Positions 2,645-26,665 of a stretch of DNA of 64,000 nt are shown piece by piece. A program made the position numbers and the translations under genes. Origin of the DNA: Ignavibacteria bacterium RIFOXYB12_FULL_35_14 (GTDB taxonomy: Bacteria; Bacteroidota; Ignavibacteria; Ignavibacteriales; Ignavibacteriaceae); NCBI GenBank assembly GCA_001803045.1, contig MHAR01000028.1, positions 1 through 64,000 of the forward strand. The letters are read 5' to 3'. Numbering within the stretch: the stretch's first letter is position 1; each line of letters begins with the position of its first letter. Below the pieces are notes generated by a model. It worked only from the letters and a program-made list of their open reading frames with translations. It was not told where the DNA came from and did not search any database.

Positions 2645-3670
2645 ATGAGAACGATTTTTCCTCTTTTCCTCTTATTCATCTGTTATACGAGTTGTTCTGT
2701 TTCTTCGGAGGAGTTACCATACGTGATTCATGTTGTCGTTGTAAAATATTTTCCCATCCATGGAGACAACATCGACATTGAAAAGACTGGAGATTGGGGA
2801 AAGGGGTTAGTGTTTACTCAGAAAAAAGTGGATAGTATAACAGCCGAACTTGCTAAATTACTTGGTAATGCTTCCTGCTACCGTGGTTACAAAAATCCAG
2901 ACGCTAAGCCTAGCATCAAATACGAAATAGTTAGTACATTCGAATTTTACGAACCGATGCCTACAGTTAGAGGAACGCATCTCGACCCACCAATGACAGA
3001 TTACAATACTATTATCCAACGTATTGATGGAAAGGATTGGATCGAAAACAGAGATGTAAAGGAAATCTGGGTTTGGGGTTATCACGGCGGTAAAGTTGGG
3101 TTATGGGAATCCAATATGGCTGGTCCGTTTGGTGATATCAGCAATAGCGACCGTGCATTAGATGATCTTCCCATTTTTTCTAAGACCTTTACTTTGTTTC
3201 ATTATAATTATCAGCGTGGTTTGTCTGAGGCAATTGAAGACCACATGCATCAAATTGAAGCACTCCTGAATTTTGTAGATGGACGTGATTCTACTGATGA
3301 AGACAAGTGGAGCGAACTTCTCTTCTGGGGGAAATTTGTCGGTAGCGATAAGAGCCACAAGATAATTCGACCTGGTTGCGGTTGGGTACACTATCCACCA
3401 AACGGAGAGAAAGATTACGACTGGGCTAATAAAAAGTATGTTGATACAGATATCGAAGATTGGAAACCGGACGGGACGGGTACTAAGCAAAACATGAACT
3501 GTGAAAGATGGAAGTGTAATAGTCTATCGTGGTTTCAATACTGGATGCAAAACCTCCCTGGTTATAACAGCGGACTTTCCTCCGAAGGCAAACCGTTGAC
3601 CAACTGGTGGATTTTTGTAGGAGATTTTGACACAGCGATGAAAAATAGAATGAAGTTGACAGCACCATAA
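2645..3670 (+). CDS. Secreted protein of an uncharacterised family (HxxE / HYPPNG), short form
   Basis: Predicted 341 residues with a hydrophobic N-terminus ending in YTSC (Cys17), a near-lipobox, so it may be a lipoprotein. I do not recognise a named family. Its C-terminal two thirds align by eye with residues about 265-590 of the protein at 14918: KEIWVWG (139-145), YQRG (189-192), HQIE (202-205), HYPPNG then DYD (249-259) and NWW (320-322) all have counterparts in the same order. The repeated His, Glu and Asp positions look like a metal or catalytic site, which is inference. It lacks the Ig-like domain and T9SS tail of the longer relative. It sits between a glycosidase and a metallopeptidase-like gene, suggesting action on glycoprotein or polysaccharide. 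Confidence 0.6.
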   Translation: MRTIFPLFLLFICYTSCSVSSEELPYVIHVVVVKYFPIHGDNIDIEKTGDWGKGLVFTQKKVDSITAELAKLLGNASCYRGYKNPDAKPSIKYEIVSTFEFYEPMPTVRGTHLDPPMTDYNTIIQRIDGKDWIENRDVKEIWVWGYHGGKVGLWESNMAGPFGDISNSDRALDDLPIFSKTFTLFHYNYQRGLSEAIEDHMHQIEALLNFVDGRDSTDEDKWSELLFWGKFVGSDKSHKIIRPGCGWVHYPPNGEKDYDWANKKYVDTDIEDWKPDGTGTKQNMNCERWKCNSLSWFQYWMQNLPGYNSGLSSEGKPLTNWWIFVGDFDTAMKNRMKLTAP

Positions 3671-3700
3671 AATTCTTGAAGCCATGATGTACTTAGTTAT

Positions 3701-6484
3701 ATGAAAGAAAAAGCTATACAAAATACATTAAGCGTCATTGCTGTTACACTCATTTTATTCTTACTCACGAATGATGTGTGTTTTTCGCAAGGAACTTTCC
3801 GCGACTCGATCTGGTATGCGAACTTTGTTAAGCACTCTGATGGTTCGCTATGCAATCACATTGCGCCTACAGCGACGTTCGTGTGCTATCTTAATGGGGA
3901 TCAGAGCAGAACACTCACTGAGAATGCCGCCCGCTGGGGTTTATCACCCGATCCAAACATCGATGGCAAGGGTGTGTTTGGAGTTGAACTCGGCAATTTC
4001 ATCAATCCAAGTCTGAAAGTGGGGGATAGTGTTTTCGTTCGTTTCACCTGCTCCGCAAATGGAGAACAAGAAGTACTTTCTGACGTGGTGAACAATATTC
4101 CGCCAGTGCGATTTCCACTTTTTTTGAAACTTACTAAGAAAAATATTCCGCAGCAACTCGAGAACTTGACAATATCATTCAGCCCTGAAAAACACCGGGT
4201 GCTTCAATGGGATTCAATTTCGGGTGTAACATACACTGTGTATCGCCGCAATTTTTCTGACACATTATCAAATGGAAAGTCGCGCGGTCTCTATGAGCTT
4301 CTTGCATCAAATCTTACAACTACTGCTTATGTTGATTCCCTCCCCTTTACGAGTTACTATCACGGATACATTGTTTTTGCCATCTCGAGTGGTGGCGTTT
4401 ACAGCGCCGCATCGAGTGAAGTGACCGAGCCTGACACGAATAGATTCCAGCTTAGTGTCATCCCCAGCGCGACGACAGTTACTCTTTCTTGGAGTTCGAT
4501 AACAGATTCAAACCACGTTGTAAGGGGCTACAATATTTATAAACGCACTGAAAATAGTACATACGGTCAGCCGATTGGTTATAGCGGCTTAGATACATCA
4601 TTCATTGTTTCTCGTTTGCCGCTTGGAACAAAATTTTTCTATAAAGTAAAAGGCAGAATCGATGCCGCAAAGGAAATCGGTGAATCAAATGAAATCGCCG
4701 CAACCACCTTGACTTCAAGGGACGGGTTTTATACGTACGCAAACCTTAAAGTTGCTGTAGTGATTTATATGAATACCAATCGCGGTTCAATTTCAGATGC
4801 TGAAGTAGTAAAGATTCGCAAGATGCTTGAAGTCGGAAGACTTTTTTATTGGCGGAATTCTTTAATGAAATTGAATACCCCATTTACCTACTATCTGATT
4901 GATACCTACAAGGATTTTCCAAGCCGGGATGATTATGCCGTGAGTCGAACGGCGAATGATCTTCAAGCTCTAGGTGTAATGAACACGCAGTACGATATTG
5001 TGTTTCGCATTTCTCCTGCAACCAGCGGCTATTGGTCATTCGGTGTGCTGAATTTGAATTTGCCAGGTCCCGCCCGAAGTACAGGTTTTTCACATTCAGA
5101 GTGGCCTGTCGGGACAGGTGTTCAGTTCCCCGCTTATCAACCCGGCATTAATTTCGGATTGACTTGGATATATATTCACGAAGTTCAACACGCTCTCGAT
5201 GGGCTTTATGAAGCCAATGGCCAACCCCAAATGTACCATGGCGATCAACCGCATGAATTTCCTGTTCCCGCCGGCGAACAACTGGATTTTCAAGCAAAGA
5301 TGTTCCGTGATTTCACTGGGTATGAGAGGTTGTTGCCTCAGTGGGGTGGAATACAAGAAGCGATTGATGGTGATAAGGATGGGTTTCCGGACAATGAGCC
5401 GCTTCTGCCTTTGGATGAAGTGCGTTTTGGCAGTAGCGCTTTCCAGGTTGATACAGATGGAGACGGCTATACGGATCGTCAGGAAGCTCTGGATGGAATC
5501 TACAACGGAAGCAACCCAAACAATAGTGACACTGACGGTGACAGTATTTCCGATGGGAACGATCCTTATCCGCGTTATCCTGTGAACACTCCTGTTCCTA
5601 TCTTTACCCCTACAATTGACGGTGTCATCGAAAGCGGATGGCATCTTGCGAATGACACAATAAGTTTCTCACCTATTAACTACGAACCAAAAATCTATAT
5701 TAACTACGACGACAATTATTTGTATATTGGTTTTAACTTGAGTTATCCGGGAATTCCCCAACTGCAGTTGGATTTTGGTGCAAATGGGTGGTGGTGGGGA
5801 ACCGGAAATACGATCATGACTATTAATCCATCGCAAGGGCAATTCACAGAATTCCATACGTGGGATGCGAGCCCCGAGGTTCAAGCCTATGCCCTGTCGC
5901 TCAATCAGTACGGTGGAATGTGGGATGACAACGCTGTATATCAACAAAAATTCTCACGTAGGGTGATTGATCCTTCCTCTACGATCTTGAAAGTTAATTA
6001 CAGTAACACAGTATCTCAAATTGAAATGGCAATTCCCAAAAGCGATTACGGGGGATTAACATTAACGAGCGGAAGTAAAATTGGATTAAACATTACATAT
6101 TCTAATGTCAAATACGTCCCTGCATTCTGGGCATCAACATTCGACCGTTATAGCTTTGTAAACTTTGTTGTTGACAAACCTGTGGGCGTGGAGGAACAGA
6201 ATAGACAAGAAGGAATTGTCTCCACATTTTCGCTGGATCAAAACTACCCAAATCCATTCAATCCCGAAACAGTGATCAGTTATCAATTGCCTGTAAACGG
6301 TTTTGTGTCACTTAAAATATTTGACCTACTCGGACGAGAAGTTACAACACTCGTCAATGAGCGGAAAGATGCGGGAAAATACAGTGTGGAATGGAAAGGG
6401 GTGAATCAACCAAGCGGAGTCTATCTTTACCATCTTCAGGTAGGAAGTTTTCATGAAACTAGAAAGATGATATTGCTTCGTTAA
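3701..6484 (+). CDS. T9SS-secreted multidomain HExxH metallopeptidase-like protein with CBM9-like domain
   Basis: Predicted 927 residues. Domains in order: signal peptide (1-30); a module with LTENAARWG and FGVELGNF (about 31-135); two fibronectin-III-like domains (about 165-335); a region with HEVQH at 493-497, a zinc metallopeptidase HExxH motif; two Asp-rich thrombospondin-3-like calcium repeats (DTDGDGYTD, DTDGDSISD, about 560-625); a CBM9-like domain (about 635-840) opening with TIDGVIESGW; and a T9SS sorting domain (from about 853, NYPNPFNPETVISY). It should therefore be exported and surface-attached or released. A third zinc ligand cannot be placed with certainty, so peptidase activity is inferred. 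The first module plus Fn3 recurs inside the glycosidase encoded immediately downstream. Context suggests attack on glycosylated protein. Confidence 0.72.
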   Translation: MKEKAIQNTLSVIAVTLILFLLTNDVCFSQGTFRDSIWYANFVKHSDGSLCNHIAPTATFVCYLNGDQSRTLTENAARWGLSPDPNIDGKGVFGVELGNFINPSLKVGDSVFVRFTCSANGEQEVLSDVVNNIPPVRFPLFLKLTKKNIPQQLENLTISFSPEKHRVLQWDSISGVTYTVYRRNFSDTLSNGKSRGLYELLASNLTTTAYVDSLPFTSYYHGYIVFAISSGGVYSAASSEVTEPDTNRFQLSVIPSATTVTLSWSSITDSNHVVRGYNIYKRTENSTYGQPIGYSGLDTSFIVSRLPLGTKFFYKVKGRIDAAKEIGESNEIAATTLTSRDGFYTYANLKVAVVIYMNTNRGSISDAEVVKIRKMLEVGRLFYWRNSLMKLNTPFTYYLIDTYKDFPSRDDYAVSRTANDLQALGVMNTQYDIVFRISPATSGYWSFGVLNLNLPGPARSTGFSHSEWPVGTGVQFPAYQPGINFGLTWIYIHEVQHALDGLYEANGQPQMYHGDQPHEFPVPAGEQLDFQAKMFRDFTGYERLLPQWGGIQEAIDGDKDGFPDNEPLLPLDEVRFGSSAFQVDTDGDGYTDRQEALDGIYNGSNPNNSDTDGDSISDGNDPYPRYPVNTPVPIFTPTIDGVIESGWHLANDTISFSPINYEPKIYINYDDNYLYIGFNLSYPGIPQLQLDFGANGWWWGTGNTIMTINPSQGQFTEFHTWDASPEVQAYALSLNQYGGMWDDNAVYQQKFSRRVIDPSSTILKVNYSNTVSQIEMAIPKSDYGGLTLTSGSKIGLNITYSNVKYVPAFWASTFDRYSFVNFVVDKPVGVEEQNRQEGIVSTFSLDQNYPNPFNPETVISYQLPVNGFVSLKIFDLLGREVTTLVNERKDAGKYSVEWKGVNQPSGVYLYHLQVGSFHETRKMILLR

Positions 6485-6526
6485 AAGACAAATCATTTAA
6501 TCCTCAACTCAATAGAGAAATCATCG

Positions 6527-9250
6527 ATGAAAAAAATAATCATTCTTTTTGTAATTGCACAAGTTGTTTCATTTGCGCAGCAGACGAAGCCCTATCTCTC
6601 CAACCTTAATGCAACAAAAACATCGCCGCTCTATACAACTTATGCCGCAGCAATGGAACGGTCGGAATTTACGCTTGACGAGGGGTATCATTTCCTTTTT
6701 TACGATTCGACACGTGGAGCAGATTTTATAACTGATAATGCAGGTGATTGGTCCCTCGGTTTTCGGAAAGGAGCAAAGTATGTCTCATCAATCAATGAAA
6801 TGTACAAACAACCTATTATTACTGCATCCTATCCGGATTTAGTGAATTATAATTTTTATCCATTTGAAAACATCAAAGTTGATGTGATGTTTTTAGTGTA
6901 CAGCTCGCATACCGCGATTCAGGATATAACAATCACAAATCTCGGTTCACAAAAAGCAGCTATCGATATTCTGCCTTATCTTAGAAACAATTATCGTTCA
7001 TTCAACGAAGTGCAAATTCTTAAAGAAAAAAATGCAATGACATTTTCGCATGAAGAGTTTCCTGATAGTTGGGTGCTTGACCATAAAGTGCCGTATGTTG
7101 ACAAAGTGTACGATGCATTTCTTTTTTCTGAGCCGATGGATCGGTATGCAAGTTTCAGAAGCTATAAATGGGGACCGGTGGAAATCCCTCAAAAGATTGA
7201 AATTGAAAAACAAAGCCAGTATGTGGTATGGGGAAGGATTTTACATAAGAATGGAGAACGTTGTCGTCATCTTCCTCCTGAACTGAAAATGATGGTGATG
7301 TTGAATAACGATAAAAGCAGAATCCTAACTGAAAACGCGCCACGATGGGGAAGTGCGGAAACGAATGTGAATTCCTACAGTTTGTATGGCGCTGAATTGG
7401 GAAATTTCGGTGCGGTAGAAATTGGAGATGCCTTTACATTTATCCTTGCATGTAAAGAATCGAATCAGGATGTCGTTATCAACGGAACAGTGACAGATAC
7501 ATCGAAAGAGCGCGATCAGCGGATCGATGGTAAACTGAATGATGCTACATTGATCAACGCCCCCCAAGGAGTGAAACGCGATATCTGGGGAAGCGGAACT
7601 GAGTTGCGTCTATATTGGAAAAAAAGTGAAACCGGCGTTAAGTATAATGTTTATCGTCGTGATTATTTAAAAAGCGGTTTTTATGAATTGATAGCCTCAT
7701 CGCTTGAACAACCTTTCTTTACCGATAAAAATATTCCCGATGATAAAGTATATGGTTATGTCGTTACAGCAGTTGATGCACAAGGACGTATGAGTATGCA
7801 TTCGGATGAAGTAAACAATATCGAAGGAAGCGATTTTCTTACTGATATTAAATATCCTGGTCAAGTAAAAGGGGATGCAAAAGATCTTGCAAAAATTATT
7901 TCTGCATCTAAGCGTTTTGAGGTTTCTGCAGGAGAAAGCGAACAACTTCGCATTATTCGTACAGTGCGAAGACCGACAGATGACGAGGATAAAACTATTA
8001 CCGAATCGCGAAAATTATTTTCGGAAGATATAAATAAATATCTCACGGCAAATGAAAAACTTTTTTCATCAATTCTGGCGCCGAAATTCGATAACTCTGA
8101 AAAAGAAATGTTATACTGGACAGCATTTTCACTTATGCGCCAGGTAATGCTTCCGCCGGAAGGGGAAAGCAGCTTCAACTATTATGTCTTTTCACGCGAA
8201 CCGCAGTGGGGATGGGGACACGGCGGGCAAGTCTTTCACGAGAGTCTAACGATGCTTGCCTATGCGTTGATGGATAATGTAAGCGCGATGAATTCTCAAC
8301 GCGTATATCGAGAGCGCCAATATAAAGACGGGTATATCAATTACCGCACCGGTGCATTTCTCAATGAAACCATTCCGTATGAAAACCAACTTACATCTTC
8401 TGCTCCATGGTATGCTTGGCAGAATTGGGAAATTTATAAAATCACAAAGGATAAAATATTTCTTGAAGAGATGTATGAATCGAGCAAATCATTCTACAAT
8501 TACTATGTAAGTAACAGAGACAGTGACGGCGATGGATTATGCGAGTGGGGTGCACACGCAGTACTAGAATGTGTTCGTGATGGAAAAGTTGCTGTGTGGG
8601 ATGAAGTCGGTTGGCCGAGCAATTTTGAGGCGGTTGATTTGAATTCAATGTTAGTCATGGAAGAAAAATCTCTTGCAGCAATGGCGATGGAACTTGGAGA
8701 AAAGAGTGAAGCGAAAGAATGGAATCGTAAAGCAGCGGAGCGATCAAAAAAAATCAATGATACAATGTGGGATAATTCGACCGGATTCTATTATAATGTA
8801 GATAAGATGACAAACACGTTCACTCACAAAAAGCTCAACGATCTGAAGCGTGAGGAGATTATCGGATTCCTTCCGCTCTGGGCTGGTGTCGCGGATGAAC
8901 AGCAGGCAAAAAAACTGATGCAGAAGTTGACAAATCCCAAAAAATTTTGGCGCAAGTATGGTGTACCGACACTTGCTGCAGATGATTTATATTATAATCC
9001 TAAAGGATATTGGAATGGTCCTGTATGGGTGCAGTGGAATTATTTAATAGAACGTGGCATGATTGATTATGGGTATAAAGCAGAAGCAAGAGAATTAGTA
9101 AACCGCGTTGCAACTAATATGATTGAACAACTGAAAAAAGATCATAATTTTTGGGAGTTCTACAGCCCTGATGAACAATGGGCAGGTTATAACAAAACGT
9201 ATTTGTGGGCTGGTATTATAACACGAATGATGTTAGATGCTCTGCAATAA
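6527..9250 (+). CDS. Exported GH63-like (alpha/alpha)6-barrel glycosidase with inserted module and Fn3 domain
   Basis: Predicted 907 residues with signal peptide 1-17 (cut near SFAQQ). The overall scheme matches the protein encoded next (start 9648): N-terminal beta-sandwich beginning with NATKTSPLYTTYAAAMERS, then a helical barrel (about 500-907) with WGWGHGGQVFHESL (561-574), YWNGPVWVQWNYLI (828-841) and FWEFYSPD near 875-882. The last two are typical of GH63/mannosylglycerate-hydrolase enzymes, and the Glu of FWEFYSPD (877) aligns with their general base. By eye, the place of the GH63 catalytic acid (WGWD in YgjK) reads WGWG here. Unlike its neighbour it carries about 200 extra residues (about 230-430): the LTENAPRWG/YGAELGNF module and an Fn3-like domain. 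Substrate unknown. Confidence 0.7.
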   Translation: MKKIIILFVIAQVVSFAQQTKPYLSNLNATKTSPLYTTYAAAMERSEFTLDEGYHFLFYDSTRGADFITDNAGDWSLGFRKGAKYVSSINEMYKQPIITASYPDLVNYNFYPFENIKVDVMFLVYSSHTAIQDITITNLGSQKAAIDILPYLRNNYRSFNEVQILKEKNAMTFSHEEFPDSWVLDHKVPYVDKVYDAFLFSEPMDRYASFRSYKWGPVEIPQKIEIEKQSQYVVWGRILHKNGERCRHLPPELKMMVMLNNDKSRILTENAPRWGSAETNVNSYSLYGAELGNFGAVEIGDAFTFILACKESNQDVVINGTVTDTSKERDQRIDGKLNDATLINAPQGVKRDIWGSGTELRLYWKKSETGVKYNVYRRDYLKSGFYELIASSLEQPFFTDKNIPDDKVYGYVVTAVDAQGRMSMHSDEVNNIEGSDFLTDIKYPGQVKGDAKDLAKIISASKRFEVSAGESEQLRIIRTVRRPTDDEDKTITESRKLFSEDINKYLTANEKLFSSILAPKFDNSEKEMLYWTAFSLMRQVMLPPEGESSFNYYVFSREPQWGWGHGGQVFHESLTMLAYALMDNVSAMNSQRVYRERQYKDGYINYRTGAFLNETIPYENQLTSSAPWYAWQNWEIYKITKDKIFLEEMYESSKSFYNYYVSNRDSDGDGLCEWGAHAVLECVRDGKVAVWDEVGWPSNFEAVDLNSMLVMEEKSLAAMAMELGEKSEAKEWNRKAAERSKKINDTMWDNSTGFYYNVDKMTNTFTHKKLNDLKREEIIGFLPLWAGVADEQQAKKLMQKLTNPKKFWRKYGVPTLAADDLYYNPKGYWNGPVWVQWNYLIERGMIDYGYKAEARELVNRVATNMIEQLKKDHNFWEFYSPDEQWAGYNKTYLWAGIITRMMLDALQ

Positions 9251-9641
9251 CCGTCTTAGATGAATAGTCGAGACTTTCAATATTCTTTAAAATTAAATTC
9301 AATAAATAAAATATTTTCACAAACAAAGTGAATACTATGAAAAAATGGAAACAGGTATTATCGTTTTCATTTTTCTTATTTGCAATATAGTATTTGTGGT
9401 TGCGGGAATATTTTTGATATTTTTTTTTACTTTGAACTTTTTACTTGCATCGGCATGTCGGAGAACTACGGCTCCCAATAAAATGCTGCTAATGTTGGTT
9501 GTTGCAAATGATGGATTGTTCTCCGTACAGACCCAAGTTGAACTTAAGTGAATTGAAATATCAATGTTTTCTCTCTTTCGCTGGGTCATTATAATTTTGT
9601 TACACGGAGAACTACAAAGTAAAGATATTTCATAAAGGAGA
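9251..9641. other. 390-base gap, probably non-coding with a possible decayed gene start
   Basis: No convincing gene. At 9337-9390 an ATG opens a short Lys-rich, then hydrophobic stretch (MKKWKQVLSFSFFLFAI) that stops at TAG, which looks like a signal-peptide start whose gene is gone. A 68-codon frame at 9345-9551 overlaps it in another register and has no recognisable product. Low-complexity T-runs occupy 9419-9430. An AAAGGAG ribosome binding site at 9634-9640 belongs to the next gene. Confidence 0.4.
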
Positions 9642-9647
9642 ATGATT

Positions 9648-11804
9648 GTGAATTTATTTAAAGTGTCATTCCTGATTCTGATTGTCTCGCTTTTTCTCTG
9701 CGAGAAAAGTGATCCGCAGGTGACGGTGCATGATGAATTTTTAAAACTCAATGCAAAAACAAACGATCCGCTCTTTACAAATTACGCGGCTGCAATTTCA
9801 CGGTCGCGGTTTTTTGCCGATAAATCATACTTTATGAACTATTTCACTTCAGACAAACCGATCACATACTCCAGTCAATATGCCGGAGATTTCACTGTGA
9901 TTTGGAAAGTGAACAATATGGTGATCAGCAACATTCGTGATTATGCAAAACAACCTGTTGTGATTGCATCATTCCCTGATATGGCTATATTGGAGTATGA
10001 ACCGTTCCAAAACATAAAAGTTCAAGAAGTATTTTTCGTCTATACTTCAGGGTCTGCAATTATAGAGCTTACATTCGAAAATACCGGCAACATTCCGTAC
10101 GATATTATGCTTTATTCGCTGGTTTACATGCCGGAAGATTCGATGCAAATTATGCAATATGATGAATCAAATCAGGGTTATGTTTTTACGCATCATGAAC
10201 CTTACGAACGATTGCACAGCAATCTGTATAAAGAACGCGGTTATCCATCTAATTTTCTGAACTTGCTTTCCTGTAATACTTCTCTTCAAAGTTACGGTGC
10301 TTATAATGTGTGCGATCTCGATCAATTTTATTTTGACATAAAACGTTTGAGCAAAGTCCACGAAAATGTTATTGCACTTAATGAACAAAAAAGTGGACTT
10401 GTTAATATAGCAGCGCTGCAAAAAAATATAAAACTTCAACCAAGAGAAAAAACATCCGTCCGTTTTATAAGATCGGTTCAAGATGAACGAAGTCCTGAAA
10501 GTGAATTGATAACGGATTCAAAATCTGCTAAGACAATTGAGCTACAAAAATATGTGGATGAGAATATTGAGTTATTCAAAACTATTCCACGAATACAATT
10601 TAAAACAGCTAAAGAAAAGATAGTCTACATCGGTGCGTTTAATCTTGTGCGCCAATGCATGCTTCCTCCCAGCGGACAAACACCCCATAATTTTTATGTT
10701 TTTTCACGTAATCCTGTATGGGGCTGGGGGCATGGGCATCAAGTAATGCATGAATCACTCTCGATGATTCCTTATGCGTATCTCGATCCAATATCAGCGC
10801 AGGCATCTCAACGGGTTTATATCGAACAGCAATATGAAGATGGATTGATAGCTTATCGCCATGGACCCCGCGGACCTCAAGTTTATCCGCATGAAGGAAT
10901 CCCTTCAACTTCAGCGCCGTTTTTTTCGTGGACTAATTGGGAAATTTATAGTGTAAGCAAAGATAAAATATTCTTAAAAGAAAGTTATGACGCCGGCTCG
11001 AAGTACATCCGCTACCTCGAAAAAGAACGGGATCAGGATCAGGACGGAATGTATGAATGGGGACCGTATGGAATAATAGAAAATGTTCGTGACGGTTGGA
11101 ATGTAGTCTTTCAATTATTTTCTGAAGGAACGGATGAAGGAAGAGATATTTCCCACGAACTTGATGTTCTCGACTTGACATCAGAAGTTGCAAATGAAAT
11201 GTTTTATCTCAAATCTATGGCAAAGGAGTTAAAAGATACTGCCGGCATTCGCGAGTGGACAGAAAAATTTGATAAAACTGCAAAGCTTATCAATAAATAT
11301 ATGTGGGACAAAAAGGATAAATTTTATTATAACGTCTCGATGGCAGATAACTCGTTTGAGTTTGAAGGGGCTAGTTTAAAACGAAAAGAACTGATCGGCT
11401 TTTTACCGATGTGGGCGCGCGTTGCAACCCAAGAGCAAGCAAGTGAACTTGTTAAGCATTTAACAAACGATAAATCATTCTGGCGGAAATATGGAATTCC
11501 CACTTTAGCTGCTGATGATCCGAATTATACACCGTTCATTGACGGCTGCTGTCGCTGGAATGGAGCTGTATGGCTGCTTTGGGATTATATGGTAATGGTA
11601 GGATTAAATAATTATGGATACGACAAACTTGCGCGGCAAGTTGCTGATAAAATGATGCTTGCCGTAACAACACAGCTTGAAACAAATCATCATTTCTGGG
11701 AATCATATAGTCCGGATTATCCAGTGCAGGAAAGCCCGTCAAATTATATATGGGATTCCATTATGGCGAAAGTATTGATTGAAATGTATACGAAGAACCG
11801 ATAA
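9648..11804 (+). CDS. Exported GH63-like (alpha/alpha)6-barrel glycosidase, paralogue of the 6527 gene
   Basis: I place the start at GTG 9648 rather than ATG 9642, because AAAGGAG at 9634-9640 lies one base from the ATG but seven from the GTG. The product is then 718 residues with an N-terminal hydrophobic signal (VNLFKVSFLILIVSLFLC). It shares with the upstream protein the opening NAKTNDPLFTNYAAAISRS, the barrel motif WGWGHGHQVMHESL, WRKYGIPTLAADD, NGAVWLLWDYM and FWESYSPD. The Glu of FWESYSPD fits the GH63 general base. It lacks the inserted module and Fn3 domain of its neighbour. An exo-glycosidase acting outside the cytoplasm is likely; substrate unknown. 26 bases separate it from galT. 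Confidence 0.7.
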   Translation: MNLFKVSFLILIVSLFLCEKSDPQVTVHDEFLKLNAKTNDPLFTNYAAAISRSRFFADKSYFMNYFTSDKPITYSSQYAGDFTVIWKVNNMVISNIRDYAKQPVVIASFPDMAILEYEPFQNIKVQEVFFVYTSGSAIIELTFENTGNIPYDIMLYSLVYMPEDSMQIMQYDESNQGYVFTHHEPYERLHSNLYKERGYPSNFLNLLSCNTSLQSYGAYNVCDLDQFYFDIKRLSKVHENVIALNEQKSGLVNIAALQKNIKLQPREKTSVRFIRSVQDERSPESELITDSKSAKTIELQKYVDENIELFKTIPRIQFKTAKEKIVYIGAFNLVRQCMLPPSGQTPHNFYVFSRNPVWGWGHGHQVMHESLSMIPYAYLDPISAQASQRVYIEQQYEDGLIAYRHGPRGPQVYPHEGIPSTSAPFFSWTNWEIYSVSKDKIFLKESYDAGSKYIRYLEKERDQDQDGMYEWGPYGIIENVRDGWNVVFQLFSEGTDEGRDISHELDVLDLTSEVANEMFYLKSMAKELKDTAGIREWTEKFDKTAKLINKYMWDKKDKFYYNVSMADNSFEFEGASLKRKELIGFLPMWARVATQEQASELVKHLTNDKSFWRKYGIPTLAADDPNYTPFIDGCCRWNGAVWLLWDYMVMVGLNNYGYDKLARQVADKMMLAVTTQLETNHHFWESYSPDYPVQESPSNYIWDSIMAKVLIEMYTKNR

Positions 11805-11830
11805 TAATGTCTTAATAGGATAGAATTAAT

Positions 11831-12871
11831 TTGAAACTCAACAAACACACACATCGTCGGTACAATATACTTTCAGGAGAATGGATTCTTGTATCGCCTC
11901 ACCGAGCAGAAAGACCGTGGAGTGGTCAAGAAGAAAAAGTACAAGAACAGAAACTGCTGGCATACGATTCAGCTTGTTATCTTTGTCCGGGGAATGAGCG
12001 AGCCAATGGTATTCGTAATCCGGAATATGATTCGGTCTACTCTTTTACAAATGATTTCCCTGCATTGTTTCCGGACACTTCTTTAGATGAATTCAGTTCA
12101 GATATTCTTCTTATTGCTCGTGGCGAATCGGGAACTTGTAAAGTTGTTTGTTTTTCCCCTCAGCACGATGTAACGCTTCCCGAATTGCCTGTTGAACAAA
12201 TTCAAAAAGTTGTTGATATCTGGACGGAAGAATACCGTGCTTTCGCTTCTGATCCCAAAATAAATTATGTACAAATATTTGAAAACAAAGGTGCAGCAAT
12301 GGGGTGCAGTAATCCGCATCCGCATTCCCAGCTTTGGGCGCAAAATTCTATCCCGGTAGAACCAGCCAAAGAACTTACTCAATTCGCTAATTATTATTCC
12401 GAAAAATCGAAATGTCTTGTGTGCGATTATCTTGTTTTGGAACAAAAACTACAAGAACGTTTCGTATGTGATAATGAAGATTTTATTGCGCTTGTTCCGT
12501 TTTGGGCGGTCTGGCCATTTGAAACGATAATCCTTTCAAAAATACATTTTGGAAGTTTGATGGAACTAAACGAAAAAGAAAAAATATCGTACGCGGATAT
12601 TTTAAAACGCTTGACGACAAGATACGACAATCTATTTAACGTGTCGTTTCCTTATTCAGCCGGCATTCACCAGTCGCCCACCGATAAAAATGAACATCCC
12701 GAATGGCATTTTCATATGCATTTTTATCCGCCGTTACTCCGTTCGGCAACAGTAAAAAAATTTATGGTAGGATATGAAATGCTGGCGAATCCTCAGCGGG
12801 ATATTACGGCCGAATTTAGTGCGGAACGTTTACGCAATAGTTCTGAAATTCATTACAAACATCGAAAGTAA
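11831..12871 (+). CDS. galT: Galactose-1-phosphate uridylyltransferase
   Basis: Catalyses the exchange of UDP between UDP-glucose and galactose-1-phosphate in the cytoplasmic Leloir pathway. The 346-residue product begins at TTG 11831 and has the family landmarks: [17 protein letters not shown] at the N-terminus, the CYLCPGN zinc/structural cysteines, NPHPHSQLWA containing the HPH nucleophile motif, and EWHFHMHFYPP near the C-terminus. Length equals that of typical bacterial class I GalT. A second, broken copy lies at 27828, directly after galK, so the intact copy here is probably the working partner of that kinase. Start choice is supported because the conserved N-terminal block begins only about nine residues in. 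Confidence 0.95.
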   Translation: MKLNKHTHRRYNILSGEWILVSPHRAERPWSGQEEKVQEQKLLAYDSACYLCPGNERANGIRNPEYDSVYSFTNDFPALFPDTSLDEFSSDILLIARGESGTCKVVCFSPQHDVTLPELPVEQIQKVVDIWTEEYRAFASDPKINYVQIFENKGAAMGCSNPHPHSQLWAQNSIPVEPAKELTQFANYYSEKSKCLVCDYLVLEQKLQERFVCDNEDFIALVPFWAVWPFETIILSKIHFGSLMELNEKEKISYADILKRLTTRYDNLFNVSFPYSAGIHQSPTDKNEHPEWHFHMHFYPPLLRSATVKKFMVGYEMLANPQRDITAEFSAERLRNSSEIHYKHRK

Positions 12872-12883
12872 TCTGAGACAGTT

Positions 12884-14869
12884 ATGAAAAACATTTTATG
12901 GTTATTTAGTATTTTTTTGTTAATCGTTTGTACGACAAAGGTATTTGCACAAAACAAAAATTATGTTTCTAACCGCCAACCACTTATCAAAAATCCATTT
13001 ATCCAGCTTCCTATCGGATCGATCTCTCCAAAAGGATGGCTGTTGCAGCAGTTCAAACTTTCTGCAATTGGAATGACTGGGCGCCTCGATGAAATCTGGA
13101 AAGATGTCGGTCCCGATAACGGATGGCTTGGTGGAAAGGGAGATCCATGGGAACGGGGACCATACTGGTTGGACGGTTTAGTACCTCTTGCCTACACATT
13201 AAAAGATCCAATCCTCATCAAGAAAGCCCAAGCATGGATAGAATGGAGTTTGAAAACACAAAGATCGGATGGATATTTTGGACCTCAGAGAGACACCACA
13301 AGAAAATTTTCCGACAAAGAACGCTGGCAGGCATGGATGGAAAAAAGCAAAGAAGATTGGTGGCCCCACATGATAATGTTGAAAGTCATGCAGCAATACT
13401 ATGATGCGACAAACGATAAACGCGTTTTGAAATTCATGCATAAATATTTCCAATACCAGCAATTGCAATTACCTACAAAGCCACTTTCGTATTGGTCACA
13501 TTGGGCAAGATCTCGCGGTGGAGAGAATCTGCAAAGTATCTACTGGCTCTATAACAGAACAGGAAAGGTATGGCTGCTTGATCTTGCACAGATTGTATTT
13601 TCTCAAACCGAAGATTGGACGGGAATGTTTGAATCCGGTGATCCAAAATACTGGCATGGGGTGAACACGGGAATGGGAATAAAGCAGCCCGGAGTCTATT
13701 ACCAGCAGTCAAAAGACGAGCGTCACATCAAAGCAGTAAAAAAAGGGATTGCTGATTTGATGAAATATCATGGTCAGGTAAACGGAATGTTCTCGGGAGA
13801 TGAAATTTTACATGGGACGGATCCTTCTCACGGAACAGAATTATGCACTGTTGTAGAATATATGTTCAGTCTTGAAACTTTGCTGCAAATAACCGGCGAT
13901 TTAGAGTTTGCAGAGATATTGGAAAAACTTGCTTTCAATGCATTACCTGCCGGTATTGAACCGGACTTTACAGGGCGGCAATATTATCAAACCCCAAACC
14001 AGATAGTCTGTGATACTTTATACCAGAACTTCAATACAAGGCACTGGGGAACTCATCTCTTCGGACTCGAAGATGGATATGGCTGTTGCACGGCAAACTA
14101 TCATCAAGGATGGCCAAAGTTCACAAGTCAATTGTGGCTTGCAACGCAGGATAATGGGCTTGCAATTATGACCTACGCTCCATCGGAAGTATCTGCGAAA
14201 GTTGGCAATGGAATCGCCGTAAATTTTGTAGAAGAAACAAATTATCCGTTTGATGAAAAGATTCTGCTGAAATATACAGGAACAAAAGATGTTGAATTTC
14301 CTCTCTATCTTCGTATTCCGTCATGGTGCAGCTCTGCTACGATCAGCATAAATAGAATTCCACAAAATTCCCGTAAAGCAGGTTCTCTTGAAAAAATATC
14401 CAGAAAATGGAAAAATGGAGATGTTGTTGAAATTATTTTTCCGATGGAAGTCCGGTTATCAAAATGGCATGAAGAAACGATTGGAGTGGAGCGTGGTCCG
14501 TTAGTGTACGCATTAAAGATGAGTGAAGAATGGAGAAAAATAAAGGGGATAGAACCTTACGCAACGTATGGAATTTATTCTAACGATCCGTGGAATTATG
14601 GATTGATCATCGGCGATGAAAACGAACCTGATTCCAGTTTTACGTTTCAAAAAAATGACATGCAGCTTCAACCGTTTGTTGCAAATGCCGCTCCATTAAC
14701 ATTAAGAGTTAAAGCAAAACGTATTCCTGAATGGCAGCAATATGGCGGTGTAGCCGGTCCGGTACCGTGGAGTCCGATCCGTTCGAAAGAACCTGTTGAG
14801 GAAGTTACATTGATTCCGTATGGCTGCACAAAACTGCGGATCGCACAATTTCCTGTAATAGAAAAATAA
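12884..14869 (+). CDS. GH127-family beta-L-arabinofuranosidase-like exported enzyme (DUF1680)
   Basis: Predicted 661 residues with signal peptide 1-22 (cut after VFAQ). The opening PFIQLPIGSISPKGWLLQQ and the block VEYMFSLETLLQITGD...LAFNALPA are hallmarks of DUF1680/GH127. The zinc-thiolate centre known from Bifidobacterium HypBA1 (Glu338, Cys340, Cys417, Cys418) is matched by Glu319, Cys321, Cys401 and Cys402 here; the second cysteine pair includes the nucleophile. Glu307 in SGDEILHG is a candidate acid/base. Known members remove beta-L-arabinofuranose, for instance from hydroxyproline-linked arabino-oligosaccharides of plant extensin, although related families act on other linkages. Starts 13 bases after galT, so likely cotranscribed. 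Confidence 0.85.
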   Translation: MKNILWLFSIFLLIVCTTKVFAQNKNYVSNRQPLIKNPFIQLPIGSISPKGWLLQQFKLSAIGMTGRLDEIWKDVGPDNGWLGGKGDPWERGPYWLDGLVPLAYTLKDPILIKKAQAWIEWSLKTQRSDGYFGPQRDTTRKFSDKERWQAWMEKSKEDWWPHMIMLKVMQQYYDATNDKRVLKFMHKYFQYQQLQLPTKPLSYWSHWARSRGGENLQSIYWLYNRTGKVWLLDLAQIVFSQTEDWTGMFESGDPKYWHGVNTGMGIKQPGVYYQQSKDERHIKAVKKGIADLMKYHGQVNGMFSGDEILHGTDPSHGTELCTVVEYMFSLETLLQITGDLEFAEILEKLAFNALPAGIEPDFTGRQYYQTPNQIVCDTLYQNFNTRHWGTHLFGLEDGYGCCTANYHQGWPKFTSQLWLATQDNGLAIMTYAPSEVSAKVGNGIAVNFVEETNYPFDEKILLKYTGTKDVEFPLYLRIPSWCSSATISINRIPQNSRKAGSLEKISRKWKNGDVVEIIFPMEVRLSKWHEETIGVERGPLVYALKMSEEWRKIKGIEPYATYGIYSNDPWNYGLIIGDENEPDSSFTFQKNDMQLQPFVANAAPLTLRVKAKRIPEWQQYGGVAGPVPWSPIRSKEPVEEVTLIPYGCTKLRIAQFPVIEK

Positions 14870-14917
14870 GATGCAATTAGTAATCGATTATCATAAATAT
14901 GTAAATAAGGATTTGAT

Positions 14918-16990
14918 ATGAAAAGACGCAAACACTATTTAATATTGTTTATTCTCTTCGTATGCGCAGTAGTAACACAGGCGCAGATAGTACAGCTTCG
15001 TACAGTTGATATAGGAGCGCTATGGAAAGCCGGAAAGGCACACCCAAATTTTGTTCCGGCATATTCCGGCGATACCTTAAAACCGTTTGACGGCAACCCG
15101 TTTAATGCATTAGAAATGTTGAATACAGATTCTCTGATTCTAACCGTTCAATTTGATTCAGCAATCAGTATTGAAAAAGCAAAAACATATTTTTGGCATA
15201 ATGCTGAATGGTTTCTCGAATCTGCTAATTCACTTACCGACTTAAATTCAAAATTAGGGACATACTCATTACTTGTTCCTAAAAAGTCGGCAAATAGTTT
15301 TCAATGGGATTCTTCCGCATTTGCTAAGAAAGAAGTTTCGTTAATACGGTTGTCAATAAAAAATCCTTCTGATTCAACTATTCGCTTCGGTGAATTAGTC
15401 TTAGAAGGAAGTATCACATTCACGAAGTTTATTATTTTACCTCAACCGATTCAAATTATTCCCAACACATCTCTGCAATTGCAACTGAAGATTCAAGATG
15501 AACAAGGGAATTTCCATTCAAATTTTATTTCTTCACCGATTTTATGGGAATCTTCTAACCATTCAATTGCAACCGTGGATGAATTTGGTAAAGTTTCCGC
15601 ATTTGCTCTGGGAGAATGTGAGATCACCGTGCGGACTCTGGACAACAAACTAAAAGGTTTTGCTCCGCTGATGGTTGTGCAAGATTTCCGTTCAACAAAA
15701 GTAAAACCGATGACAGTGAAAGTAGCATTGGTCATTCAGGATCCGTGGCTGCCATCGAGCAATCGAATTCATGAAGAATTTGGCTGGCGGGACCCGAAGC
15801 AGTTGTCGAATAAACTTGTGTTTCATTTTAAAGAAGCGACGGACAGTGTCGTGAATTTTCAATTCGTGGAGATCATTGATGCAAACATTCTCTTCACTCG
15901 CTTTTACGGAAACTTTCTTAGCGTTACCCAATATGTTGAACTGCTCAAAGAACCCGGATGGAAAACACTGCGCGCAGCTGAAGATTCAGGACAGATCTGG
16001 TTCGATTACCGCGAAATGGTGAAATACTATCATTTTGATGAGAAGAGAAACAATAACTCCATTGATGAGGTGTGGGTGTTTGCCGCTCCATTCCTCGGCA
16101 TGTATGAATCGCAACTGATGGGACCCAAGGCATTCTGGTGGAACTCTCCTCCTATTAAAGACGGAACAGCATTGAATAAACTTCTTTCCGTGATGGGATT
16201 GAATTACGAACGCGGCGTTGACCAAGCGTTTCACAGTTTTGGACATCGCGTAGAGAGCGCTCTTGCATATGCATATTTTGAAGCCACGGGACTTAATTGG
16301 AATTCTACAAGGACTAATCCAACTCCGTGGGATCTATTTACGAGGATAGAGAAAGATATGCCAGGTGAGGCGCACGTCGGCAATGTTCATTTTCCACCGA
16401 ACGGTGCTCACGATTACGATTATGGTAATTCAACTATAGTGAAGTCGTTTGCCGAAAACTGGTACCGTTATCCCTATCTTCTCGATCAAAGTAGTCAGGT
16501 GAATGTAGCTACGTGGCTTTACACTCCAGGAGAACCACTCGCCGAAGGACAGGATCATTTAGGGTTCTTGCGATGGTGGTACGGTCATATTCCAAGATAT
16601 GAAGGTGTAAGTAATGGAGTGTTGAACAATTGGTGGCATTATGTTGTGGATTATGAAGCTGCGGTTGCACTTGCAAAAAGTACACATCCGGTTGGTCTGC
16701 GTGAAGAAAATTCTCTTAATCCGCCGCGAAAGTTTGGACTTGAACAGAACTATCCAAATCCGTTTAATCCTTCAACAGTTATAAACTATTCATTGGAGAA
16801 TCCGTCACATGTTTCGGTAAAGATATTTAATATGCTTGGAAAGGAAGTAGCTACATTGATTGATAAGATAATGAGTCTCGGACAACACAACGTTCAATGG
16901 AATGCGCAAGGCTTTTCTTCCGGGGTATATTTCTATCAATTAAAAACCGGGGACATTATTCAAACTAAAAAAATGGTTTTGCTGAGATGA
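14918..16990 (+). CDS. T9SS-secreted protein of the uncharacterised HxxE / HFPPNG family, with Ig-like domain
   Basis: Predicted 690 residues: signal peptide 1-22, an N-terminal discoidin-like beta region (about 25-165), a bacterial Ig-like (Big_2) domain (about 168-255, SIATVDEFGKVSAFALG), a central domain of unknown function (about 265-590) and a T9SS sorting domain (from about 607, NYPNPFNPSTVINY). The central domain matches the protein at 2645: DEVWVFA (383-389), YERG (430-433), HRVE (443-446), HFPPNG...DYDYGN (491-504) and NWW (571-573). The conserved His/Glu/Asp set could bind metal or catalyse hydrolysis, but no function is known to me. A TGTAAATAAGGAT leader precedes this gene and also the next one. 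Confidence 0.65.
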   Translation: MKRRKHYLILFILFVCAVVTQAQIVQLRTVDIGALWKAGKAHPNFVPAYSGDTLKPFDGNPFNALEMLNTDSLILTVQFDSAISIEKAKTYFWHNAEWFLESANSLTDLNSKLGTYSLLVPKKSANSFQWDSSAFAKKEVSLIRLSIKNPSDSTIRFGELVLEGSITFTKFIILPQPIQIIPNTSLQLQLKIQDEQGNFHSNFISSPILWESSNHSIATVDEFGKVSAFALGECEITVRTLDNKLKGFAPLMVVQDFRSTKVKPMTVKVALVIQDPWLPSSNRIHEEFGWRDPKQLSNKLVFHFKEATDSVVNFQFVEIIDANILFTRFYGNFLSVTQYVELLKEPGWKTLRAAEDSGQIWFDYREMVKYYHFDEKRNNNSIDEVWVFAAPFLGMYESQLMGPKAFWWNSPPIKDGTALNKLLSVMGLNYERGVDQAFHSFGHRVESALAYAYFEATGLNWNSTRTNPTPWDLFTRIEKDMPGEAHVGNVHFPPNGAHDYDYGNSTIVKSFAENWYRYPYLLDQSSQVNVATWLYTPGEPLAEGQDHLGFLRWWYGHIPRYEGVSNGVLNNWWHYVVDYEAAVALAKSTHPVGLREENSLNPPRKFGLEQNYPNPFNPSTVINYSLENPSHVSVKIFNMLGKEVATLIDKIMSLGQHNVQWNAQGFSSGVYFYQLKTGDIIQTKKMVLLR

Positions 16991-17029: not shown

Positions 17030-20000
17030 ATGGGTAAATATTTTTTACTATTCATGCTTTTGTTCGCAGTGACAACTATAGCAATTGCTCAGCAAAAATA
17101 TTGCATTGGATATTTGACATCAGCTCTTGAGATATCTAAAGAAGATGATGCCGCAATAGCATGGTTAGATAATTCGAAGAAATTCAATTGTAAAATTATT
17201 AAAAAAGTAGAAAAAGGAAATCAGGATTTTGTTGGAACGGATGTTTTATGGATTCACCTTCCTGATTCAATTGGATTAAACAATCTACTTAAACAAAAAA
17301 ACATTCTTTCTCATTTAAATAAATATTATCAAAATGGTGGGAAAATTCTTTTCACGGATTATGCTGCTATGTTACCGAATGCCATGGGTATTGAACCTAA
17401 GAAACCGGAAATCCGTCATGATACGATTCAGAACGAATGGTTATTTGATAAGCGTGGATTTCAAGGGCATTTGGGTCATCCGCTATTTGCAGGATTTTTT
17501 GGTGGTGAGTACGTATGGGATGCCAATGAAGATCAAATAATGTCTTTTGTGGGATATTTTGGGAAAGATTTTCCGGAAAAGGGGAAAGTAATTGCCATAG
17601 ACAAGGCATACGTTTTTGTCTATGCGGAAAGAAAGATTGTGATTGAGCACTCTAATAAAAAAGGGAAAGTAATTTCAATTGGTTCAAGTATTTATTTCAG
17701 CAAGTCAAACAATCTTCGGAACAATCTTGAACATTTTATGGAGAATACGCTTCAGTATCTTGCCGGTGAAAAATTTAATGAACCCGTTACTTACTGGAAA
17801 AAATTTACTAATAAACCTATTCTTTTTACTGAAAAGAATGTCCCTATAGTTCTTTCAAAAGAAAGGGAAATGAAAAATATTCCTCACTCCGAATTGCTTT
17901 TTACTCGTTTAGAACCGCAAAATAATTATTATGAAGCTTCCGGACGTCGTGCGCTTATCATGGGAAAAGAAAATGGCGGAATTGAGGAAGTATGGGTGCA
18001 TCCATTAAGGATTCTTCGTGATTATGAGGTTGGAATTTTAACAGGTGATTCGATAACATGGTTGCAGAATTACCCGGTGAACGTTGAAATTCGCCCTGAA
18101 TCCTTTAATCGGATTTATTCGACTCCTTTCGGCGAATTGAAAGAAATTATTTTTGCTTCATTATGGAAAGCTGGAGGCATTGCTCATTATACTTCAACTT
18201 TTTCAACGAAACTTATCATTCGCTTTCGTAGCGATTTGCGTTGGATGTGGCCCTACGATGCTAATGCACTTGGGGATGTGCACTATGCTTACGATGAGAC
18301 GATGAATACCCTTCATTTAAAAGATACAACAGGGAAATTTTATTGTTTGTTTGGTGGTGATATAATTCCCTCATTAAAAATCAGTGGGCAGTTCCAAAAA
18401 ATTCAATGGTCGCCGAAAGGATTTGTAGGAACCGAAACGAATGAGAATCAAGTATATCATGCGGTTATGTATGATCTGAGTATGAAAAATAATTTCACAC
18501 TCAATTATACTTTTCTTGGAACAAATGAAGGGAAGGAAAAAGCGCTTACTGATTACCGAATACTTCTCGAAAAACCTGAAGAACAGTATGCTGAACAGGT
18601 TGTGCATACAACCGATCTTTTAAAACGCACAGTACAAGTATTTTCTCCCGATATAGAATTTAATGCGCTTTTCAAATGGGCGATTGTTGGCACAGATAAA
18701 TTTCTTGCCTATACTCCTGGACTTGGAACGGGTTTACTTGCCGGATTTGCAACCTCAGCTCACGGCTGGAATGGAGGCCATAAAAACAGTGGGCGTCCCG
18801 GCTATGCCTGGTATTTTGGGCGCGATTCAGAATGGTCCGGGTTCGCTATTAATGACTACGGCGATACAGAATTAGTGAAAGAACAACTAAAATTTTTACA
18901 ACGGTATCAGGATAGATCCGGAAAAATATTCCATGAAATCTCTACAAGCGGGGTTGTCCATTATGATGCAGCCGATGCAACTCCATTGTATATAATTCTT
19001 GCCGGTCATTATCTGCGTGCATCAGGTGATATTGAATTCATTAAAGAAAGCTGGATGCATCTTAAGAGTGCAATTGATTTTCTTTATTCAACTGATACAG
19101 ACGGTGATGGGTTGATTGAGAATACAAACGAAGGACACGGCTGGGTTGAAGGTGGTGCTTTGTTTGGAGCCCATAGTTCTTTTTATCTTTCATCGTCTTG
19201 GGGTCAAGTATTAAAGGACATGTCTTTTATTGCTGCATTAATCGGCGAAAATGACCTGGCAGCAAAATACTCTATGGATGCGAAAAAAGTTCAAAAAATA
19301 TTAAATACTGATTTTTGGAATGACTCAACTCAATTCTATAATCTCGGGAAATTGAAAGATGGAACTTATCAAACCGAACCGACCGTACTTCCAGCTGTAG
19401 GTGCGTACTTTAATTTGTTAGATGATGCTAAAGTAAAATATATGCTTGATGCTTATGCTTCAAATAGTTTTAGTACAGACTGGGGTACTCGTATTGTGAG
19501 TTCTTCTTCAAAATTATTCAAACCAACAGGATATCATTATGGAGCTGTATGGCCGCTTTTTACGGGGTGGACTGCTTTGGCGGAGTACGAGTATGGGAAC
19601 TCAGTACAAGCGTTCTCGCACTTCAATGAAAATCTTGCAATTAAAAATTTTTGGGCGCTTGGATATGTTGAAGAGGTAATGAATGGCTCAGTATATAAAC
19701 CATCAGGTGTTTGTCCACATCAGTGCTGGTCTGAAACAAATATTCTTCATCCAGCAATCACTGGCATGATTGGGTGGAAACCGAATGCGGTTGAACAAAG
19801 TGCGACACTCAAACCGAGATTCCCGCTTTCTTGGGATACTATCTCTGTTGCAGATTTACGATCAGGGAAGTCATTGCTTCAACTCTCGATGAAACGCGGA
19901 TTAAACAGAACGGTGTACTCTATCAAACTTATTGAGGGACCGGAACTAAAAGTTCAATTCTCTCCTGAAATTCCGGATGGGATGAAAATTAAAAAGGCAT

Positions 20001-20401
20001 TTATCGATAAGAAAGAAATAGCAATTAAAGATTCAACGTTCAGAGGACTTCTGGCAATTCCAATACAAATTCAACTAAAAACAACTGTGGAAATTGTTTT
20101 TGAACACACTGGAGGAATTGGGATGTACCCTGTTGTTCCACATCCTCAACCCGGTAATAGTTCTCAAGGGTTTAGAATCATTTCCACTTCTCTCTCAGGG
20201 AAACAATATACGTTAATAGTGGAGGGCAAATCCGGAACTGAAGGAAATTTTATTTTAAATGCTTTCGATCAGAAGGTTGTATATGTTGCCAATGCTGAAT
20301 TTGAAACAACTCCAAAGCAAGGTATCATAAATTTGAAAGTAAATTTTGACGATTTGTCAAGTTGGATTGGGCGTAAAACGGTTAAAGTAATGTTGCAGTA
20401 A
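17030..20401 (+). CDS. Exported GH133/debranching-like barrel enzyme with N-terminal ThuA/amidotransferase-like domain
   Basis: Predicted 1123 residues, signal peptide 1-20. Residues about 22-245 look like a ThuA/class-I amidotransferase-like alpha-beta domain (DVLWIHLPDS, GGKILFTDYA, KGKVISIGSSIYF) without an obvious catalytic Cys. A beta-rich region follows, then a helical barrel (about 535-960) with GYAWYFGRDSEWSG (591-604), HEIS (635-638), DATPLYI and GHGWVEGG (702-709), the arrangement of glycogen-debranching enzyme C-terminal domains (GH133-like). A C-terminal beta domain (about 1030-1123) resembles that of the protein at 21704. Probably releases sugars from branched glycan in the periplasm; target unknown. 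The fused N-terminal domain distinguishes it from its paralogue. Confidence 0.68.
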   Translation: MGKYFLLFMLLFAVTTIAIAQQKYCIGYLTSALEISKEDDAAIAWLDNSKKFNCKIIKKVEKGNQDFVGTDVLWIHLPDSIGLNNLLKQKNILSHLNKYYQNGGKILFTDYAAMLPNAMGIEPKKPEIRHDTIQNEWLFDKRGFQGHLGHPLFAGFFGGEYVWDANEDQIMSFVGYFGKDFPEKGKVIAIDKAYVFVYAERKIVIEHSNKKGKVISIGSSIYFSKSNNLRNNLEHFMENTLQYLAGEKFNEPVTYWKKFTNKPILFTEKNVPIVLSKEREMKNIPHSELLFTRLEPQNNYYEASGRRALIMGKENGGIEEVWVHPLRILRDYEVGILTGDSITWLQNYPVNVEIRPESFNRIYSTPFGELKEIIFASLWKAGGIAHYTSTFSTKLIIRFRSDLRWMWPYDANALGDVHYAYDETMNTLHLKDTTGKFYCLFGGDIIPSLKISGQFQKIQWSPKGFVGTETNENQVYHAVMYDLSMKNNFTLNYTFLGTNEGKEKALTDYRILLEKPEEQYAEQVVHTTDLLKRTVQVFSPDIEFNALFKWAIVGTDKFLAYTPGLGTGLLAGFATSAHGWNGGHKNSGRPGYAWYFGRDSEWSGFAINDYGDTELVKEQLKFLQRYQDRSGKIFHEISTSGVVHYDAADATPLYIILAGHYLRASGDIEFIKESWMHLKSAIDFLYSTDTDGDGLIENTNEGHGWVEGGALFGAHSSFYLSSSWGQVLKDMSFIAALIGENDLAAKYSMDAKKVQKILNTDFWNDSTQFYNLGKLKDGTYQTEPTVLPAVGAYFNLLDDAKVKYMLDAYASNSFSTDWGTRIVSSSSKLFKPTGYHYGAVWPLFTGWTALAEYEYGNSVQAFSHFNENLAIKNFWALGYVEEVMNGSVYKPSGVCPHQCWSETNILHPAITGMIGWKPNAVEQSATLKPRFPLSWDTISVADLRSGKSLLQLSMKRGLNRTVYSIKLIEGPELKVQFSPEIPDGMKIKKAFIDKKEIAIKDSTFRGLLAIPIQIQLKTTVEIVFEHTGGIGMYPVVPHPQPGNSSQGFRIISTSLSGKQYTLIVEGKSGTEGNFILNAFDQKVVYVANAEFETTPKQGIINLKVNFDDLSSWIGRKTVKVMLQ

Positions 20402-26337: not shown

Positions 26338-26458
26338 AACCGAAATTGTCATCATAAGAAATTACATTTAACGAAAAGAAGTTGAGTTTGATGAACAATC
26401 TCACAAATATAGGTTTAGAGATTCTTCACGTTGTTCAGAATTTTAAAGGAGAAAATAA

Positions 26459-26662
26459 ATGAAACCGATCTGGTTTTTTGTTGGATTAATTTTACTTGTA
26501 ATGGGCGGAATAATTTTTCTATCGGGAATCTATCAATTTATAAATCCTCCGGAAGTAAAAACTGTTCTCGCCGAAACTCATCCGGCTATATGGTGGGGAG
26601 CCGTAATGTTTATCTTTGGCGGTATCATGTATTGGAAAACAAGGAAGCAGACTGTAGAGTAA
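26459..26662 (+). CDS. Small two-helix membrane protein
   Basis: A 67-residue product with two predicted membrane helices (about 4-26 and 44-60) separated by a short polar loop with INPPEVKTV. A strong AAAGGAG ribosome binding site lies upstream of the ATG. It sits between the symporter and galK, with galK starting four bases after its stop, so all three are probably one operon. I do not recognise a family; a role as accessory to the transporter is only inferred from position. An overlapping frame at 26431-26679 is a shadow. Confidence 0.6.
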   Translation: MKPIWFFVGLILLVMGGIIFLSGIYQFINPPEVKTVLAETHPAIWWGAVMFIFGGIMYWKTRKQTVE

Positions 26663-26665
26663 CAA

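Follow-up and report, generated by a model that had tools for sequence, protein, structure and literature searches.

Metzincin proteases, among them the adamalysins/ADAM, TACE, ADAMTS and CpaA (M72), carry HExxHxxGxxH/D with its His residues on a central helix, and their N-terminal subdomain follows the order beta-alpha-beta-alpha-beta-beta-beta and then a long helix. Zincin scaffolds normally hydrolyse amides, and we know of no glycosidase with a zincin-like fold. Bacterial O-glycopeptidases such as CpaA, the M60-like BT4244 and Amuc_1438 are exported, multi-domain proteins on a zincin-like scaffold; all carry HExxH and cut mucin-type O-glycoproteins. M14 carboxypeptidases, whose zinc ligands are spelled HxxE plus a distant His, have a different alpha/beta fold.

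Among the enzymes that strip plant glycans, GH127 members have beta-L-arabinofuranosides as substrates, both in hydroxyproline-rich glycoproteins and in other glycans of plants (PMC7263609, PMC10850190, PMC4454575). They have been linked to extensin (PMC4454575, PMC7263609), their Cys3-Glu zinc site has been described (PMC10850190), and pectin and arabinogalactan are also targets of enzymes of this clan (PMC10850190).

Here, both themes meet in one bacterial locus. The window, a 64,000-nucleotide stretch of contig MHAR01000028.1 from Ignavibacteria bacterium RIFOXYB12_FULL_35_14, contains two genes whose products are referred to below as type A and type B (Table 1). As proposed in the preliminary description, both open reading frames encode a common domain of about 320 residues. 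BLASTP aligns the two proteins with E 4e-16 and 25% identity across 231 residues, and at the sequence level they are true, distantly related paralogues, the only members of the family in the source genome. The motifs said to recur in the same order (E-WV, Y-RG, HxxE, HxPPNGxxDYD and NWW) align in family alignments of 9 and of 70 sequences. The C-terminal T9SS sorting domain attributed to type A was recovered with Por_Secre_tail (E 1.4e-10) and TIGR04183 (48.3 bits vs a cut-off of 23). Lipidation of type B, judged from its N-terminus (...ICYTSC17), is plausible only.

Table 1. Features of the window, with positions counted from its first nucleotide.
Feature	Position	Strand	Description
Type-B paralogue	2645..3670	+	341 aa; single domain after signal peptide; possible lipoprotein (C17)
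Type B helix motif	3236..3259	+	E198-D-H-M-H202-Q-I-E205; Glu at first position
Type B H249	3389..3391	+	Counterpart of type A H491
Z-type neighbour	3701..6484	+	Pfam-less domain at about 4715-5605; HEVQH at 5177-5191; T9SS tail
Two MGH1/GH63-like glycoside hydrolases	6527..11804	+	Genes at 6527-9250 and 9642-11804
galT	11831..12871	+	Galactose-1-phosphate uridylyltransferase
Divergent GH127	12884..14869	+	Conserved partner of type A; E319, C321, C401 and C402 kept
Type-A paralogue	14918..16990	+	690 aa; N-terminal modules, Big_2 (aa 206-238), family domain (aa 262-591), T9SS tail (aa 612-687)
Type A family domain	15701..16690	+	Model m723adde9891b, pLDDT 97.5
Type A E397	16106..16108	+	Start of short fourth strand; kept in 68/70
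Type A helix motif	16232..16255	+	H439-S-F-G-H443-R-V-E446; long helix; domain positions 178, 182, 185
Type A HxPPNGxxDYD motif	16388..16420	+	H491-F-P-P-N-G..D-Y-D; H491, P493 and N495 invariant in 70/70
GDE_C/MGH1-like glycoside hydrolase	17030..20401	+	Conserved downstream neighbour of type A
(alpha/alpha)6 glycoside hydrolase	21704..24313	+	Orthologue fused to type-B domain in G038
SSF sugar symporter and galactokinase (galK)	24661..27841	+	
GH97	29118..31232	+	

Pfam and the neighbouring genes agree with the earlier placement of both paralogues in a glycan-degradation locus. Galactose is probably also released by this locus, because galT, galK, an SSF symporter and GH97 are all present in the window. 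The gene at 3701 represents a second Pfam-less exported family, here called Z-type. In this family the zincin motif is intact (HE[VAMC]QHAxD..MYHGDxPxxFPVxCGE), and a T9SS tail is present, in some cases together with a CBM9-like module. This second family recurs in the same kind of locus in six further cases, as well as in genome G494.

The family that includes types A and B is spread across many phyla. A single scan of 84,980 species genomes returned 124 relatives, 80 of which were kept. Those from Bacteroidota are mostly Ignavibacteria, and other members belong to Calditrichota, KSB1, Verrucomicrobia, Kiritimatiellales, Planctomycetota, Armatimonadota, Chloroflexi, Acidobacteria, Riflebacteria, Myxococcales, Desulfobulbaceae and CPR bacteria. 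The distribution is patchy, with the family found in 7/59 genomes among relatives and 7/395 genomes in a phylum-wide sample, and a search of a plasmid collection gave no match. Fusions of the domain to Kelch repeats (Chloroflexi), a beta-helix (Chthonomonadales) and CARDB/DUF11 modules (Saprospiraceae) occur in four loci, and fusion partners across the family also include CarboxypepD_reg. One member, L083 (JACSRR010000073.1), lies on a short contig of an Ignavibacteriaceae MAG; it differs from its relatives by a membrane-like segment at the C-terminus and is possibly contamination.

Nine residues are invariant in 70/70 aligned sequences, namely H443, E446, G488, H491, P493, N495, W533, P559 and W572 of the type A protein. 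In domain numbering, which is used below and to which 261 is added to obtain type A numbering, these are H182, E185, G227, H230, P232, N234, W272, P298 and W311. E123, E136, N148, R171, D238, Y239 and W312 are near-invariant in the same alignment. Several acids (E123, E136, E185, D238 and D240) and many Trp residues are conserved. Position 178 is His in 46 sequences and Glu in 24, with no other residue, and position 179 is S, D or N, rarely G or T. The helix motif is therefore written [HE][SDN]xxH[RQ]xE, and HxPPNGxxDYD comes after it.

No family model in Pfam or NCBIfam matches the shared domain of either paralogue, and a Pfam scan of 70 members gave no significant match within the domain. 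Glycoside hydrolase profiles in Pfam matched neither the paralogues nor the 70 members, and carbohydrate-binding module profiles gave a single chance-level match across these members (CBM_35_2, E 0.025, in one of them). Assignment to a known non-catalytic carbohydrate-binding family, raised earlier as an alternative, was accordingly not found in Pfam across 70 members. No solved structure in the PDB was matched by sequence, and a text search of the literature for the motif returned noise only. A PDB profile search produced chance matches to cytochrome c3 (E 0.02 or worse), which were rejected.

AlphaFold2 models from the family alignments reached pLDDT 97.5 and pTM 0.93 for type A and pLDDT 95.2 and pTM 0.93 for type B; the modelled domains share 23% identity with each other. 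In both models, DSSP gives the order beta-alpha-beta-alpha-beta-beta(short)-beta-long helix, with the motif on the long helix, as in the N-terminal subdomain of metzincins. Metzincins rank first for both models in Foldseek and VIA-align, many of them ADAM/ADAMTS. For type A, the best match is CpaA (6o38; Z 7.2, rmsd 4.2, 158 residues), alongside ADAM/ADAMTS; for type B it is TACE (Z 7.8, rmsd 4.4, 192 residues), and the glycopeptidase Amuc_1438 is also among the matches. However, these scores are modest (Z below 8, no Foldseek E below 1e-3) and Argonaute MID domains appear in the same lists at Z 6.0-6.6, so a relationship of the modelled domain to metzincins is taken as likely only.

Profile comparisons with metzincin families gave no significant match. 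With hhalign, the family profile matched M64 at E 0.02 and Reprolysin_4 at E 0.13, compared with 3e-5 for a control pair of these metzincin families, and the non-significant alignment sets the family's HSFGH on HE[FM]GH. Comparison with the Z-type neighbour was also not significant; the HxxxH/HExxH register came up again. M14 carboxypeptidases share the HxxE and distant His spelling with the family, but they differ in fold and have no Pfam match within it. No M14 chain occurs among the structural matches listed, which bears neither for nor against M14.

The family also departs from metzincins in several ways. HExxH was found at the helix in 0/70 sequences, the full HExxHxxGxxH/D motif is likewise absent, and the 70-sequence alignment has no invariant Met in its C-terminal half for a metzincin Met-turn below the zinc. 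Without the catalytic Glu of HExxH, the domain is not a standard zincin peptidase. The helix continues beyond the usual Gly turn, HxPPNGxxDYD is an additional invariant motif, and the C-terminal part is rich in Trp.

How a metal might be held can be considered from the helix itself. A helical wheel drawn from the model helix limits places 178, 182 and 185 on one face, within about 60 degrees. In the register of the profile alignment, which is not significant, H/E178 would be the first zinc His and H182 the second; Ser, Asp or Asn would then replace the catalytic Glu, and E185 would stand in place of the metzincin Gly. In a second register, judged by distance from strand 5, H182 would instead be the first zinc His. 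In a tree from which the tested columns had been left out, position 178 changed from His to Glu or back on five occasions. Of the 234 variable columns compared with it, the one that tracks 178 most consistently is 241, part of the DYD[Y/W] loop, in 3-4/5 pairs and never in the opposite direction (sign test p about 0.125, five events). Since 241 changes along with 178, a contact between the motif helix and the HxPPNGxxDYD loop is suggested.

The domain had been described as uncharacterised, with polar residues resembling an active site and perhaps dependent on a metal. Much of this holds up, as no family model covers the domain, the His, Glu and His residues are invariant across many phyla, position 178 accepts only His or Glu, and the models resemble zinc metalloproteases. 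The hydrolase, in contrast, stays a putative one, as the zincin catalytic Glu is missing.

Genomic context links type A to GH127. In Ignavibacteria, Calditrichota and KSB1, type A occurs in operon-like arrays with galT, GH127 and window-type (alpha/alpha)6 hydrolases, and in many of these loci GH127 lies within about 10 kb of it. Within Bacteroidia, GH127 lies at this distance (within about 10 kb) in 8/8 loci having flanks. SusC/SusD are among the pooled neighbours there, with a gene-by-gene reading for locus L053 and a partial one for L055, and DUF5007/fasciclin surface proteins are also found near the family gene beside SusC/SusD. In five genomes, the GH127 near type A is the only one encoded, so that in each of these genomes, taken as 2-4 Mb, chance alone would bring the two within about 20 kb with a probability of roughly 1% at most.

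The partner GH127 belongs to a divergent branch that retains all four residues of the Cys3-Glu zinc site. This branch (CCT[AS]N.HQGWPKF-type) was seen in the window and in six other loci, with Pfam covering positions about 55-375 only; it is distinct from canonical GH127 and probably worth its own subfamily. Large proteins of about 930 aa with a C-terminal FGE-sulfatase domain were also observed beside type A in the Bacteroidia loci (6 matches among 89 neighbours).

Type B shares a locus with type A in the window and in six other cases. For example, the G038 locus has a gene content much like that of the window, with the order partly kept. A single fusion ORF there, L166:8448-12023 (1192 aa), has the 21704 hydrolase orthologue at residues 26-872 (MGH1-like in Pfam) and a type-B domain at 876-1191. 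A third, single-domain type directly follows type A in three loci, including G038. With one branch encoded next to enzymes that remove sugars such as arabinose from plant material, and the other joined to such an enzyme in a single case, the family probably carries out an uncharacterised step of plant-glycan breakdown.

This pattern does not extend to all members. The preliminary description called the family secreted, which fits the window pair and most relatives but not the type-B proteins of Chloroflexi (eight examples), which have no hydrophobic N-terminus in a simple hydropathy test. Secretion is therefore not a family-wide trait. These Chloroflexi members appear cytoplasmic and solitary. 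Across 22 pooled loci, mostly from Chloroflexi, Planctomycetota, Armatimonadota and CPR, no glycoside hydrolase was found among the 25 commonest neighbour families, which were mainly transporters and housekeeping families. As glycan genes are missing near Chloroflexi type-B members, the core activity is not bound to plant glycans everywhere.

With some reserve, and at a little under an even chance, the domain is best explained as a metal-dependent hydrolase that is built on a re-wired zincin-like scaffold and serves plant-glycan or glycoprotein breakdown. The scaffold would be alpha/beta, like the N-terminal half of metzincin proteases, with the canonical HExxHxxGxxH rebuilt as [H/E]xxxHxxE, carried by the long central helix, together with the downstream His of HxPPNGxxDYD. 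A divalent metal, probably Zn2+, may be held by H/E178, H182 and H230, with E185 or E136 as the putative general base. Type A would act extracellularly on the substrate of the adjacent GH127 (beta-L-arabinofuranosidase clan), and type B would act alongside the (alpha/alpha)6 glycoside hydrolases that the locus encodes. As substrate, a plant glycan or hydroxyproline-rich glycoprotein bearing L-arabinose and galactose is the likeliest candidate, and the fold slightly favours a peptide over a glycosidic bond as the one cut. Counted against this explanation are the missing HExxH, the middling fold matches, the non-significant metzincin profiles, the dependence of the 178/241 coupling on five events, and the Chloroflexi members described above.

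One special case within this explanation, doubtful in itself, is a glycopeptidase, CpaA- or M60-like with a new site, that cuts the backbone of arabinosylated or galactosylated glycoproteins. The metzincin-like fold, with CpaA topping the type A matches and Amuc_1438 appearing for type B, is consistent with it, and the nearby GH127, galT/galK and GH97 would suit Ara-/Gal-bearing hydroxyproline-rich proteins, given the association of GH127 with extensin (PMC4454575, PMC7263609). However, GH127-clan enzymes act on pectin and arabinogalactan too (PMC10850190). The known O-glycopeptidases differ both in carrying HExxH and in their mucin-type substrates, whereas the window locus combines galactose and GH127 enzymes. 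The Z-type neighbour, with its intact HExxH, is also the more obvious protease of the locus.

The main rival, which we regard as unlikely, is a non-catalytic pseudo-zincin, that is, a metal-stabilised accessory domain that binds glycans or glycopeptides and presents substrate to neighbouring glycoside hydrolases. It would account for the missing catalytic Glu and the many conserved Trp residues, and the position after SusC/SusD, the DUF5007/fasciclin neighbours and the fusions to glycoside hydrolase, CarboxypepD_reg, Kelch, CARDB and beta-helix modules fit a binding module as well as an enzyme. Nevertheless, surface glycan-binding proteins evolve fast and usually have fewer invariant positions, and nine invariants over many phyla, two His, one Glu and one Asn among them, exceed what is usual for binding proteins. 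The absence of any carbohydrate-binding family above cut-off in Pfam and the Chloroflexi type-B members, with neither signal peptide nor glycan neighbours, also argue against it. That the zincin-like scaffold carries a metal-dependent glycosidase or lyase of a new kind, again a special case of the re-wired hydrolase, is improbable: constant glycoside hydrolase company, one fusion and several conserved acids speak for it, but amides are the usual target of zincin scaffolds, and a literature search found neither a zincin-fold glycosidase nor an inactive zincin of this kind.

In summary, the family is conserved over several phyla, its structure is predicted with very high confidence, and it is absent from Pfam-A, from NCBIfam and, by sequence, from the PDB. 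The boldest version of the preferred reading, an undescribed enzyme family in which a zinc-protease scaffold was re-wired ([H/E]xxxHxxE...HxPPN for HExxH) to a new chemistry, possibly cleavage of a glycosidic bond or of one between glycan and peptide, and in which one branch keeps a divergent GH127 as its regular partner in several phyla, is rather unlikely as a whole. The specific GH127 branch and the fused glycoside hydrolase point to concrete candidate substrates. If the family is enzymatic, microbes would have a further, previously uncharacterised step for degrading beta-L-arabinofuranosyl plant glycans or glycoproteins, and the family would represent a zincin-like scaffold that functions without HExxH.
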